From Ignavibacteriales bacterium (lineage in GTDB: Bacteria > Bacteroidota > Ignavibacteria > Ignavibacteriales > SURF-24): a DNA stretch of 64,000 bases. A program made the translations under genes and the position numbers. The DNA lies in contig JAPLFH010000007.1 in the NCBI GenBank assembly GCA_026390815.1, positions 62,001 through 126,000 on the forward strand. Direction: 5' to 3'. Positions 8,138 to 11,514 of the stretch are shown piece by piece; position 1 is the stretch's first letter, and the number at the start of each line of letters is the position of its first letter. Below the pieces are notes generated by a model, which was not told the DNA's origin, ran no database searches, and was given only the letters and a program-made list of their open reading frames with translations.

Positions 8138-9235
8138 ATGTCGGAACTGGAATTGAATGTTGCATCTAGACTAGATGTTTATTTGTCGCTATACAATAAT
8201 ATGCAAGTTGATAATCAAAATAATACCGTTAAAGTTTATGATAATTTGCTTGAAGAATATCAAACACTTCGTAATGGTGTTGGTTTAAGGGATATTTCTA
8301 CCAATTGTATTCTTGAATTTGCGGGCGGTGAGAGTTTAGATTTTCTAAATAGAATAACTACTAATTTATTAAGGGATCTTCAACCAAATAACTTTCGTGT
8401 AACTTTATTTACAAATGAAAAAGGAAGAATTATTGAACGCGGAGATGTAATTAGATGCAATGGATCTATTTTACTATTAAGCAGCGCTCATTGTAAAAAT
8501 AAACTTTTCAGTTGGGTGAACAAGTATATTATAATGGAAGATATTAAAGTAGTTAATGCAACTGGTAATTATAATATATATGAATTAATCGGACCTCAGG
8601 CAGAATCTTTTGCTACACTTATTTTTGATAATGATGTGGATAAATTGTCACTTAATCAGGTAAAAAGTTGTAATGTTGATGGAAATGAATATTTAGTACT
8701 TAAAAAGAAAGAATTTGGATTGGATAAGTTCGTCATACTTCATAAATCAAAACCTGATGGCAAATTTGTAAAACATTTATTTGAACAAAAAAGTGTTTTT
8801 GATTTTAGATTAATTGGTGAAGATGCCTATGAAAAATTTCGAATTGAAATGGGAATTCCAATTGCACCAAATGAACTAAATGATGCCTACAATCCTCATG
8901 AAGCAGGATTAATAAACGAAGTGAGTTTTACAAAAGGATGTTTCATTGGTCAGGAAGTTATTGCACGTTTGGATACTTATGATAAAGTTCAGAAATCTCT
9001 TACTGGGGTAATAATAAATTGTCAGGAAATTCCTTTGGGTAGTTTGGTATTGTTGGAAGCTAAGAATGAAATTGGTAAGATTACTTCAATTACATATTCT
9101 CCTTTCCTTAAAAAATTTATTGGTTTGGCTTATGTAAGAAAAGAATTTAAGATTAATGGTACAATACTTATTGCTAAAGCTGATGATGGATTAGAATATC
9201 CAGTAACAATTTGCGATCTTCCTTTTAAAAGATGA
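8138..9235 (+). CDS. ygfZ: YgfZ/GcvT-like folate-binding protein
   Basis: 365-residue cytosolic protein of the YgfZ (IBA57) family, which resembles the aminomethyltransferase GcvT and uses folate to help assembly or repair of certain iron-sulfur enzymes. The N-terminal domain shows GcvT-like LRDIS, FLNRITTNLL and FTNEKGRIIERG. The YgfZ signature KGCFIGQEVIARL is present, with its conserved Cys at about residue 268. A C-terminal barrel domain follows. The stop overlaps the next start by 4 bases (ATGA), so it is coupled to the cobalamin adenosyltransferase gene. The nearby multiheme and Fe-S genes would be plausible beneficiaries, but that link is inference. Confidence 0.85.
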   Translation: MSELELNVASRLDVYLSLYNNMQVDNQNNTVKVYDNLLEEYQTLRNGVGLRDISTNCILEFAGGESLDFLNRITTNLLRDLQPNNFRVTLFTNEKGRIIERGDVIRCNGSILLLSSAHCKNKLFSWVNKYIIMEDIKVVNATGNYNIYELIGPQAESFATLIFDNDVDKLSLNQVKSCNVDGNEYLVLKKKEFGLDKFVILHKSKPDGKFVKHLFEQKSVFDFRLIGEDAYEKFRIEMGIPIAPNELNDAYNPHEAGLINEVSFTKGCFIGQEVIARLDTYDKVQKSLTGVIINCQEIPLGSLVLLEAKNEIGKITSITYSPFLKKFIGLAYVRKEFKINGTILIAKADDGLEYPVTICDLPFKR

Positions 9236-9780
9236 AAATATATACTAAGACTGGGGATAGAGGGGAGACAAGTTTAATTGGCGGAAAGCGGGTAACAAAA
9301 GATAATTTGCGAATTGATGCTTATGGAACGATTGATGAACTTAATTCCGCACTTGGCATTGCAATAATTGAAATAAAAAACGAAGCATTAATAAAACTCC
9401 TTCAAAAAATTCAGAATCAGTTATTTGTTGTTGGTTCTGATCTGGCAACACCAAAATCTGAAACATCTGAAAAACTAAACATTGCAAAAATTACAATAGA
9501 TTATTATGAAGGAATTGAGAAGGAGATAGATTTTTTTTCCACTCAGCTTCCGGAATTGAAAAATTTTATCCTACCAGGTGGTTCCAAAGGTGCTTCTTAT
9601 CTTCATCTGGTAAGAACAATCTGTCGTCGTGCAGAAAGAATAGTTGTGGCACTAAGTAAATCTGTTGATATTGGTGAGAATATAATCATATATTTAAACC
9701 GTCTTTCAGACTTGTTCTTTGTCTTAGCAAGATATGAAAATAAAGTTCTTAATATCCCTGATATTATTTGGAAGATGTAG
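9232..9780 (+). CDS. Cob(I)alamin adenosyltransferase, PduO type
   Basis: 182-residue cytosolic enzyme that transfers adenosyl from ATP to cob(I)alamin to make coenzyme B12. The N-terminus MKIYTKTGDRGETSLIGGKRV is the classical PduO-type ATP-binding motif, followed by RIDAYGTIDELNSALG and, in the last third, RTICRRAERIV and YLNRLSDLFFVLAR. Length matches the family (about 180-190). It overlaps ygfZ by 4 bases. No other B12 genes are in the window, so it probably serves salvage of imported corrinoids. It ends 54 bases before the tmRNA gene. Confidence 0.92.
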   Translation: MKIYTKTGDRGETSLIGGKRVTKDNLRIDAYGTIDELNSALGIAIIEIKNEALIKLLQKIQNQLFVVGSDLATPKSETSEKLNIAKITIDYYEGIEKEIDFFSTQLPELKNFILPGGSKGASYLHLVRTICRRAERIVVALSKSVDIGENIIIYLNRLSDLFFVLARYENKVLNIPDIIWKM

Positions 9781-9834: not shown

Positions 9835-10196
9835 GGGGGTGAAATTGGTTTCGACGGGGTTAGAAGGCTTTGAACTGCGCACCGTGATCTCCAATTACAC
9901 GTTAAACGTTGGAAACAAAAATATAAACGGCGAATATAATTACGCCCTAGCTGCTTAATCCCGTAAAGCGGGAGCAGCCGTTCATTATTTTTCCTCATAC
10001 CGGGGAATAATTGAACGTCGCTTAGGTATGATAGCTGAATCGAGTGCCAGGTAGATAAGGCGAAATAAACACTGGCGGGATTTAAAGACAGCTTTGCTTG
10101 TTAAGGAACTTTAAGTCTAAAAAAAATAACAGGCTATGTGTGTAGACGTTCACTGGATTTTAATTTCGGACGCGGGTTCGACTCCCGCCACCTCCA
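9835..10196 (+). ncRNA. ssrA: tmRNA (transfer-messenger RNA)
   Basis: Rescues stalled ribosomes by trans-translation. The 5' strand GGGGGTG (9835-9841) pairs with CACCTCC (10189-10195), giving a 7-bp acceptor stem with one G-U pair and A73 at 10196; CCA is not encoded. The start continues GAAATTGGTTTCGACGGGG, the conserved tmRNA head. The T-arm is GCGGG-TTCGACT-CCCGC. The tag frame at 9911-9958 gives GNKNINGEYNYALAA then TAA if GGA is the resume codon. The ALAA end is canonical; 15 residues is long for a tag. The resume codon is inferred by position. The last 38 bases recur at 10465-10522 after a GIY-YIG gene. Confidence 0.96.
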
Positions 10197-10199
10197 CAA
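10162..10199 (+). repeat. Direct repeat copy 1: intact tmRNA 3' end
   Basis: 38 bases from AATTTCGG to CTCCACAA, covering the 3' part of the tmRNA (T-arm, acceptor strand, A73) and three bases beyond. The same 18 + 20 bases occur at 10465-10482 and 10503-10522, split there by 20 extra bases. The offset between copies is 303 bp, and the space between is almost filled by one small GIY-YIG gene. Confidence 0.95.
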
Positions 10200-10211
10200 A
10201 TATTTTGTATT

Positions 10212-10454
10212 ATGTTTTATACTTATATACTTTTTAGCGAGATTGGGAATAAACATTATTATGGTTCGACAAAAGATATACCGACCAGATTGAATGAACA
10301 TAATAATGGGAAAGTAAAATTCACAAAGCCATTCAGACCCTGGCAAATAGTTTATTATGAAGAATATCCCACCCGAAGTGAAGCTTGTAAACGTGAATTA
10401 TTTTTTAAGAGTGTTGATGGACGTATCTGGCTAAAAAATAATAGAATACTCTAA
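10212..10454 (+). CDS. Small GIY-YIG nuclease-domain protein next to tmRNA
   Basis: 80-residue single-domain GIY-YIG protein (UPF0213/YhbQ-like branch). Visible: YTYIL at 3-7 (the GIY half), HYYGST at 15-20 (the YIG half), Arg26 in RLNEH (expected catalytic Arg), and KREL at 60-63 with the expected metal-binding Glu62, ending FFKSVDGRIWLKNNRIL. Such domains cut DNA in homing endonucleases, UvrC and related enzymes, but small stand-alone members are often uncharacterised. It starts 15 bases after the tmRNA and ends 11 bases before a second copy of the tmRNA 3' end. This suggests a small mobile module that targets the tmRNA T-arm, which is inference. Confidence 0.85.
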   Translation: MFYTYILFSEIGNKHYYGSTKDIPTRLNEHNNGKVKFTKPFRPWQIVYYEEYPTRSEACKRELFFKSVDGRIWLKNNRIL

Positions 10455-10464
10455 GACAAGAAGA

Positions 10465-10522
10465 AATTTCGGACGCGGGTTCTGCACAGCATCCCTTTGG
10501 GAGACTCCCGCCACCTCCACAA
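10465..10522 (+). repeat. Direct repeat copy 2: tmRNA 3' end with 20-base insert in T-loop
   Basis: Copy of the tmRNA 3' end (18 + 20 identical bases) interrupted at 10483-10502 by tgcacagcatccctttggga. The break lies inside the T-loop, after GCGGGTTC and before GACTCCCGC, so the T-stem is kept while the loop grows from 7 to 27 bases. The insert contains a small hairpin TCCC-TTT-GGGA. With no matching 5' acceptor strand after copy 1, this copy is not a functional RNA end. Confidence 0.9.
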
Positions 10523-10632: not shown

Positions 10633-11514
10633 ATGAAAAAAATTTCCTTTGCAAAAATGAGCGGCGCTGGTAACGATTTTATTCTATTCGATAGAAGGTT
10701 TAATCCGGATATGGAACTGCATCCCGCAGTTATAAAAAAATTATGTAATAGAAGAACTGGAATAGGTGCTGATGGAATCCTTATTATATCAGATTTTCCC
10801 GGTTATGATTTTATGATGGAATATTTCAATTCAGATGGTTCAACTGGTTCATTGTGTGGGAATGGTGCAAGATGCGCAATCAGATATGCACATTTAAGTG
10901 GCAGAATAAATAATGCAACCACCAATTTTATCTCCAATAATGTCCAATATGCTGGTGAAATTCTGGATGCTGATAATGTAAAATTTTATTTATCTGAACC
11001 AAAGAATTTTAAGTATAATTTTAAAATTAAGACCTTTAATCAACTTGTCAGTTCAAGTTTTGTTGATACAGGTTCACCTCATGTTGTTATTAAATTGGGG
11101 GATGTATTGCAAAACGTCCAAATTCCAAATTCTTTTTATCAGGATTTAGATGATTTTCCAGTTGTTCAATATGGAAGAGAGATTAGAAATTCAAAAGATT
11201 TTGCTCCATCTGGCACTAATGTTAATTTTATAAAAATTGTTGATAATAAAATATTCATTAGAACTTATGAAAGAGGAGTCGAAGACGAAACTTTAGCCTG
11301 CGGAACTGGTTCTACCGCTGCTGCAATAATAAGCTATGTTAATGATAAACTAAAACCACCTATTACTGTTGTTACCAAAAGTGGTAATGAATTAATAATT
11401 GACTTTAAAGTTGAAGATCAGCATATAAGGAATTTATCCTTGACTGGTCCTGCGGAAATAACATTTACCGGGGAATTTTACTCAAGTTTATATTTTAATA
11501 ATTCGGAGAAATAA
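10633..11514 (+). CDS. dapF: Diaminopimelate epimerase
   Basis: 293-residue cytosolic racemase converting LL- to meso-diaminopimelate, for lysine and peptidoglycan synthesis. The N-terminus KMSGAGNDFILFDRR is the family signature. The two catalytic cysteines are visible: Cys75 in SLCGNGARCA and Cys223 in ACGTGSTAAA, matching the two-base mechanism. The C-terminal GPAEITFTGEFY is also typical. Length is slightly above the usual 275-ish residues because of a short N-terminal insertion. The stop abuts the ATG of the next small gene. No other lysine genes are nearby. Confidence 0.95.
   Translation: MKKISFAKMSGAGNDFILFDRRFNPDMELHPAVIKKLCNRRTGIGADGILIISDFPGYDFMMEYFNSDGSTGSLCGNGARCAIRYAHLSGRINNATTNFISNNVQYAGEILDADNVKFYLSEPKNFKYNFKIKTFNQLVSSSFVDTGSPHVVIKLGDVLQNVQIPNSFYQDLDDFPVVQYGREIRNSKDFAPSGTNVNFIKIVDNKIFIRTYERGVEDETLACGTGSTAAAIISYVNDKLKPPITVVTKSGNELIIDFKVEDQHIRNLSLTGPAEITFTGEFYSSLYFNNSEK

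Follow-up and report, generated by a model that had tools for sequence, protein, structure and literature searches.

In a stretch of 64,000 nucleotides of DNA from an Ignavibacteriales bacterium (the window), the tmRNA gene is followed by a small unit that we read, with moderate confidence, as a minimal, integrase-free, SegB-like homing unit which leaves one RNA gene intact and which belongs to a wide family at tRNA and tmRNA genes. Units of this family measure about 300-450 bp and are found at tRNA and tmRNA genes of bacterial chromosomes; each consists of a bare GIY-YIG gene that abuts an intact RNA gene in the same orientation, together with a partial copy of that RNA gene which mostly carries a short hairpin-forming insert. 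At the window locus the unit and its neighbours are arranged as follows:

9232..9780, plus strand: cobalamin adenosyltransferase gene (PF01923), upstream neighbour, outside the unit
9835..10197, plus strand: intact tmRNA gene, the target RNA gene, with tag GEYNYALAA (ARAGORN; Rfam RF00023)
10162..10199, plus strand: recurring 38-nt tmRNA 3' end (direct repeats), including two bases past the tmRNA end
10212..10454, plus strand: gene for the 80-aa bare GIY-YIG nuclease (Pfam PF01541, E 2.6e-18)
10465..10482, plus strand: left part of the second, partial tmRNA copy, AATTTCGGACGCGGGTTC (18/18 identity)
10483..10502, plus strand: double-hairpin insert, TGC-ACA-GCA followed by TCCC-TTT-GGGA, TGCACAGCATCCCTTTGGGA, in the T loop of the partial copy
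10503..10522, plus strand: right part of the second, partial tmRNA copy, GACTCCCGCCACCTCCACAA (20/20 identity)
10633..11514, plus strand: dapF (PF01678), downstream neighbour, outside the unit

The tmRNA gene was called complete by ARAGORN and matched all 374 positions of the RF00023 model (173.6 bits, E 9.9e-71), in agreement with a reading made earlier from the sequence only, according to which the first copy keeps the tmRNA intact. As that reading had also proposed, the gap between the copies is filled by an 80-residue GIY-YIG gene, the ORF of which starts 15 bases past the tmRNA end. The recurrence of the 38-base tmRNA 3' end is likewise real, but not with the single spacing of 303 bp given for it, as the second copy is split into 18 and 20 bases by the 20-nt insert: positions 10162-10179 return at 10465-10482 (18/18 bases, spacing 303) and positions 10180-10199 at 10503-10522 (20/20 bases, spacing 323). 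In the T loop the insert separates C56 precisely from G57, with zero tmRNA bases lost, and the second copy, which had been taken for a displaced or decoy copy, is not simply displaced but interrupted by a double hairpin; a decoy role for it is conjectural. When the tmRNA was compared with its own locus by blastn, the two halves of the second copy were recovered at E 8e-6 and 9e-5; these values, together with the same architecture at other loci and in other phyla, rule out a chance repeat, and an assembly artefact is ruled out by the same layout in cultured isolates and in the complete chromosome CP096135.1. A 70-aa minus-strand ORF at window positions 10134-10346, containing WRWRESNPRP, corresponds to a reverse reading of the tmRNA end and is likely an annotation artefact.

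Ordinary genes surround the unit, namely those for LptF/G, an M20 peptidase, a GcvT-like protein and the cobalamin adenosyltransferase on one side and dapF on the other, and no integrase, transposase or island genes were found by ORF and Pfam analysis among the genes neighbouring it. A comparison of the feature with the anti-phage defence models of PADLOC-DB gave no match at E 0.01. The proposal of a minimal unit made of one nuclease and a copy of the RNA end, with no integrase beside it, therefore stands, while the part of it that spoke of a 'replacement' end is not shown: because both tmRNA ends are identical outside the insert, it cannot be told which of them would be the replacement, and the picture of a replaced 3' end is at odds with the many family members in which the intact tRNA has the gene on its 5' side and a partial copy of the 5' part. 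The unit could in principle be the remnant of an integrase-type island with its attachment site in the tmRNA gene, given that islands commonly use tmRNA 3' ends as their sites (PMC11915505) and that a far-end direct repeat of the tmRNA 3' end is present, albeit interrupted by the 20-nt insert. This interruption speaks against such an origin, as does the duplication of the 5' part in mirror-image units, and the lack of an integrase and of island genes among the neighbours combined with the recurrence of one-gene units at many tRNAs in many phyla has led us to reject it as having next to no probability.

Across the family, the inserts of the partial copies occupy an arm tip, that of the D, the anticodon or the T arm. 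A hairpin that is missing from the intact gene but present in the partial copy was found in 46 of 57 cases, compared with 11.6% of control windows, using a test that misses the window insert, whose stems are only 3 and 4 bp long; by the same test the other 11 of the 57 partial copies are hairpin-negative. Clean inserts with zero target bases lost occur at fixed places, in the D loop at about nt 21/22, in the anticodon loop at about nt 36/37 and in the T loop between C56 and G57, the T-loop sites reading GTTC^RA in 18/18. Most inserts are 18-64 nt long, and their sequences and sizes vary widely around no conserved scaffold. Exactly two abutting hairpins make up 26 of the 45 inserts that were parsed (the other 19 are not double hairpins), an arrangement into which shuffled inserts parse in 0.1-2.7% of cases and shuffles of the window insert in 2%. 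Loop 1 is richer in purines than the pyrimidine-rich loop 2 in all 26 double-hairpin inserts, so that such an insert looks alike on both strands. Within a set of 13 inserts of 22 nt, 97% of the stem cells pair, two-sided changes number 22 compared with 6.1 in shuffles and G-U pairs occupy 1 of 104 cells, figures of which the pairing percentage is biased upward, and the pair counts partly too, because these inserts were mostly picked for parsing. The window insert is very similar to that of locus L111 (genome G020, tRNA-Ser), which has the same T-loop position and whose nuclease falls into the same clade. The 18-nt T-loop inserts of L108 and L111, located at different tRNAs of G020, match exactly once one of them is reverse-complemented, as though the insert could itself be copied in either orientation. 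Strong hairpins number only 4 in the 64-kb window, and so sparse a background cannot account for the presence of a hairpin in most partial copies. Dispersed copies do exist, since TCCCGA..TCGGGA hairpins occur 15 times in the 4.5-Mb genome, 4 times near tRNAs and otherwise away from them; an explanation of the hairpins as generic dispersed repeats was nevertheless rejected.

The hairpin-marked partial copy might also act at the level of RNA, as a noncoding RNA made together with the nuclease mRNA and serving as guide, decoy or processing signal, which would suit the observation that gene and partial copy are always on the strand of the RNA gene. At the window locus a scan revealed neither a consensus promoter immediately ahead of the nuclease gene nor, on the plus strand between it and the tmRNA, a terminator-like site, which makes read-through transcription plausible, and folding with DNA parameters indicates that the T stem can still pair despite the insert. 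Such a function has only a very slim chance of being the explanation in our view, in light of the diversity of the inserts in sequence and size, the near absence of G-U pairs from them, the existence of fragments that comprise the 5' part alone or the 3' part alone and the position of the partial copy, which is sometimes upstream of the gene.

The source genome contains seven GIY-YIG genes. Two of them are contained in long open frames whose lengths, 630 and 570 codons, correspond to UvrC, and L007 is of another type; the remaining four are small genes that directly adjoin tRNA-Pro, tmRNA, tRNA-Gly and tRNA-Leu, and all four have a partial copy of the RNA gene across the nuclease gene that is interrupted by hairpin-forming sequence. 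In a sample of 114 GIY-YIG loci from 38 related genomes, a tRNA is located at most 300 bp from the gene at 57 loci and is on the same strand in every case. A search for Rfam RNAs at the 57 loci without a tRNA revealed one tRNA and nothing else, and most of these loci represent other GIY-YIG subfamilies in the nuclease tree. In this tree, the single forks of which are weak because the alignment has only 78 columns, RNA adjacency is bound to clades, with 56 of 70 members in one clade and 0 of 40 in the clade of other small GIY-YIG types that serves as internal control. Among the 14 exceptions in the RNA-associated clade are one subclade of seven members and loci located at contig ends. A subclade recognised by a KRYIKNR motif (L088, L090, L105, L139, L157, L158 and L172) is sister to the tRNA-Cys lineage, and no tRNA or Rfam RNA was found near its loci. 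The nuclease lineages track the target RNA, not the host: within the RNA-associated clade the target isotype is clustered on the tree (14 changes versus a shuffled mean of 38.9) and the host family is not (19 versus 21.2), nucleases at the same target in different genomes share a mean identity of 48.9% compared with 40.9% for those at different targets in one genome, and each genome carries several unrelated lineages. The subfamily, which the sequence-only reading had suggested looking for next to other RNA ends, was thus found beside many tRNA genes in the source genome, in its relatives and in the wider collection described below; the gene neither always lacks the repeat nor keeps to a single RNA end, the two outcomes that had been named as counting against that reading.

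Sites lacking the unit, which the same reading had proposed to search for, were found as well. The distance between tmRNA and dapF is 435 bp in the window and 119 bp (G007) or 126 bp (G032) in two genomes that keep the gene order and have no unit, a difference of about one unit in length. Two genomes of one genus, G016 and G029, differ at tRNA-Asp: G029 has a single tRNA and an empty site, while in G016 the native upstream flank leads to a hairpin-broken 5' copy and the intact tRNA, behind which come the nuclease gene, then a 3' copy that is also broken and finally a second gene in truncated form, in a comparison where the DNA downstream of the site could not be aligned within the stretch compared. 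The tRNA-Cys site is empty in G030 and occupied in G009, again within one genus; both broken copies of the G009 locus (L163) have a GGCGG-type acceptor stem, differing from the GGTGGAG of the intact gene and of G030, which suggests that the broken copies are foreign or older.

The units occur in two orders. In class 1 the intact RNA gene is followed by the nuclease gene and then by a partial copy of the 3' part, and in the mirror class the partial copy consists of the 5' part and the nuclease gene precedes the intact RNA gene; at many loci broken copies flank both sides. Tandem arrays comprise up to five units, and with their often truncated last gene they resemble the segmental amplification driven by SegB. 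Some tRNAs have hairpin-marked fragments but no nuclease gene, as would be expected for relics. Hairpin-marked partial tRNA copies without a nuclease gene were observed at L215 and L217 in the source genome and at L226-L230 in G037, where they flank tRNA-Ala, -Pro, -Met, -Ser, -Gly and -Thr, and L226 consists of four tandem 5' fragments with a period of 109 bp. A second, distinct GIY-YIG lineage is located directly behind tmRNA at L048 (G024), L055 (G009), L066 (G013), L052 (G010) and L233 (G037), with a remnant at L050 (G038). A leader of some 150 nt, rich in inverted repeats (GGCTTCGTTTT..ACTACGCC), stands ahead of its gene and at L048, L055 and L233 occurs a second time after it; partial copies of the tmRNA were not seen at the loci of this lineage.

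Local tandem duplication alone, for which SegB-type segmental amplification offers a precedent (PMC13096335), could also account for the arrays in which the last unit is truncated and for those of hairpin-marked fragments that lack the gene: the gene would have settled beside the RNA gene long ago and been inherited vertically, and the partial copies would stem from unequal recombination and decay. We give this explanation a slim chance, considering that the nuclease phylogeny follows the target and not the host family, that a single genome holds several unrelated lineages, that an empty site exists within the same genus (G029 versus G016) and that decay leaves the precision of the hairpin inserts, with no bases lost, unaccounted for.

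In a collection-wide scan of about 85,000 species genomes, at least 515 relatives were detected, the best 80 of which were inspected. Among these best 80 of at least 515, a tRNA lies within 300 bp at 66 loci, on the same strand in all 66, a partial second copy is present at 58 and a hairpin within or beside the copy at 45. The hosts of the best 80 are distributed over about a dozen phyla, including Bacteroidota, Ignavibacteriota, Chlorobiota, Balneolota, Nitrospirota, Margulisbacteria, Planctomycetota and several candidate phyla, and comprise cultured isolates and one complete chromosome. Searches of 50,697 phage records and 72,556 plasmid records gave no relatives that cover 80% of the query, and phage or plasmid cargo was rejected on that ground.

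The nuclease gene in the window is an ORF of its own that lies outside the continuous tmRNA gene and in no intron or intein. Its catalytic residues Y5, Y16, R26 and E62 are invariant among 37 relatives, and G18 is nearly so. An AlphaFold2 model of the 80-aa protein shows a compact bare domain (pLDDT 97.7), and a separate DNA-binding module is absent, judging from the single Pfam domain and the compactness of the model; among free-standing GIY-YIG homing endonucleases a DNA-binding module besides the catalytic domain is common, though not universal. In the nuclease tree the protein is placed in the tRNA-Ser-associated clade, which has T-loop inserts. The T arm of tmRNA resembles that of tRNA-Ser, and a lineage normally located at tRNA-Ser appears to have moved to tmRNA in the window. 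The folds nearest to the model are those of UPF0213 and of Slx1, a branched-DNA nuclease, and this proximity turns structure-led cutting into a serious rival, in which an Slx1-like enzyme would act on hairpins extruded from tRNA-gene DNA and the double hairpins would be repair scars or substrates. Besides the predicted fold, to which Slx1 comes closest after UPF0213, the location of the inserts at tRNA arm tips, which are near-palindromic DNA, is consistent with this explanation, and the strand symmetry of the inserts, their two-sided pair changes and the almost complete lack of G-U suggest structure at the level of DNA. The binding of nuclease lineages to RNA isotypes, however, implies sequence recognition, and we consider cutting led by structure unlikely.

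According to the preferred reading as a SegB-like homing unit, the nuclease would cut the RNA gene at an arm tip, each lineage at one. In the window the putative cut site lies between 10179 and 10180 (GGGTTC^GACTCCC, between C56 and G57 of the T loop), as judged by the position of the insert and the overlap with the SegB motif GTTCSAWTY; by analogy, it is the splitting of this motif by T-loop inserts from which we infer one arm tip per lineage. The unit would be inserted when repair uses unit-bearing DNA, and the only surviving outcomes would be those with one complete RNA gene, so that a duplicate of part of it remains at the opposite end of the unit. The double hairpin would interrupt the cut site of the spare copy and thus prevent recutting, and in the window it probably plugs the site in the spare tmRNA copy. 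Recombination between copies could subsequently give rise to tandem arrays, or delete the gene and leave hairpin-marked RNA-gene fragments. Both the cleavage and the mobility of the units are what we infer here, and several observations weigh against homing. The intact RNA gene retains the supposed cut site, so that immunity of the occupied site is left unexplained, and a bare domain of 80 aa is small for a site-specific homing enzyme. Moreover, the 19 of 45 inserts that are not double hairpins and the 11 of 57 hairpin-negative copies do not fit, nor do the broken copies without a nearby nuclease gene and the TCCCGA..TCGGGA hairpins away from tRNAs. Tentatively, and with less than even confidence, the units might be assigned to a categorically new class of integrase-free elements present in many phyla, made up of a bare nuclease and a target fragment marked by a double hairpin, which would insert at tRNA and tmRNA genes and spare one of them, the strand-symmetric hairpins arising at the break as products of a distinctive end-capping or repair reaction coupled to insertion.

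Small 'GIY-YIG family proteins' are widely annotated and, to our knowledge, have no assigned role. If the homing reading is true, many of them would be components of a self-propagating DNA unit that ranks among the smallest known, essential RNA genes on bacterial chromosomes would be colonised without an integrase, and SegB-like homing would extend from phages to chromosomes. It would further explain the tRNA pseudo-copies and tandem arrays beside tRNA genes and would define a family of compact nucleases in which lineages go with particular arms of the RNA. A directly testable signature is provided by the double-hairpin inserts, which sit precisely at arm tips.

It is already known that homing nucleases occur near phage tRNAs, that islands integrate at tmRNA and that tRNA and tmRNA loops can harbour introns. 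For bacterial units of the present make-up no description was found in open papers, subscription journals and preprints being mostly outside the scope of that search. The small UPF0213 or COG2827-type GIY-YIG proteins (PDB 1ywl, 1zg2) are of the same size and fold and give the best sequence and structure matches, but in these genomes the remaining small GIY-YIG lineages group in a clade of their own, in which 0 of 40 members have an RNA gene as neighbour. Integrase-type islands at tRNA and tmRNA 3' ends also target the end of an RNA gene and leave a functional gene and a partial repeat, in contrast to which the units described here have no integrase, a single gene and an interrupted repeat and include 5'-end mirror units. 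Group I introns with homing endonucleases reside in tRNA and tmRNA genes, with T-loop sites known in tmRNA (PMC11915505). They share with the units the targeting of tRNA and tmRNA loops, the tmRNA T loop included, whereas here the functional RNA gene is uninterrupted and does not contain the nuclease gene, and the inserts are far too short for an intron. The closest parallel is SegB of phages T4 and T6, a free-standing GIY-YIG homing endonuclease encoded beside tRNA genes; it cleaves inside tRNA genes with a preference for RAWTSGAAC, and its activity causes the tRNA-segB segment to be amplified in tandem (PMC13096335). Like SegB, the feature in the window has a GIY-YIG domain with its catalytic residues, a gene of its own, a location at its target and nuclease-less alleles, and the family shares with it the position beside tRNA genes and co-amplification in tandem with the tRNA; the reverse complement of the preferred SegB sequence, GTTCSAWTY, corresponds to the T arm, where the T-loop inserts of these units are found. 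In contrast to the phage gene, the units are chromosomal and encode a bare 80-aa domain, a putative cutter, in lineages bound to isotypes, and they carry an interrupted partial target copy with a double hairpin.
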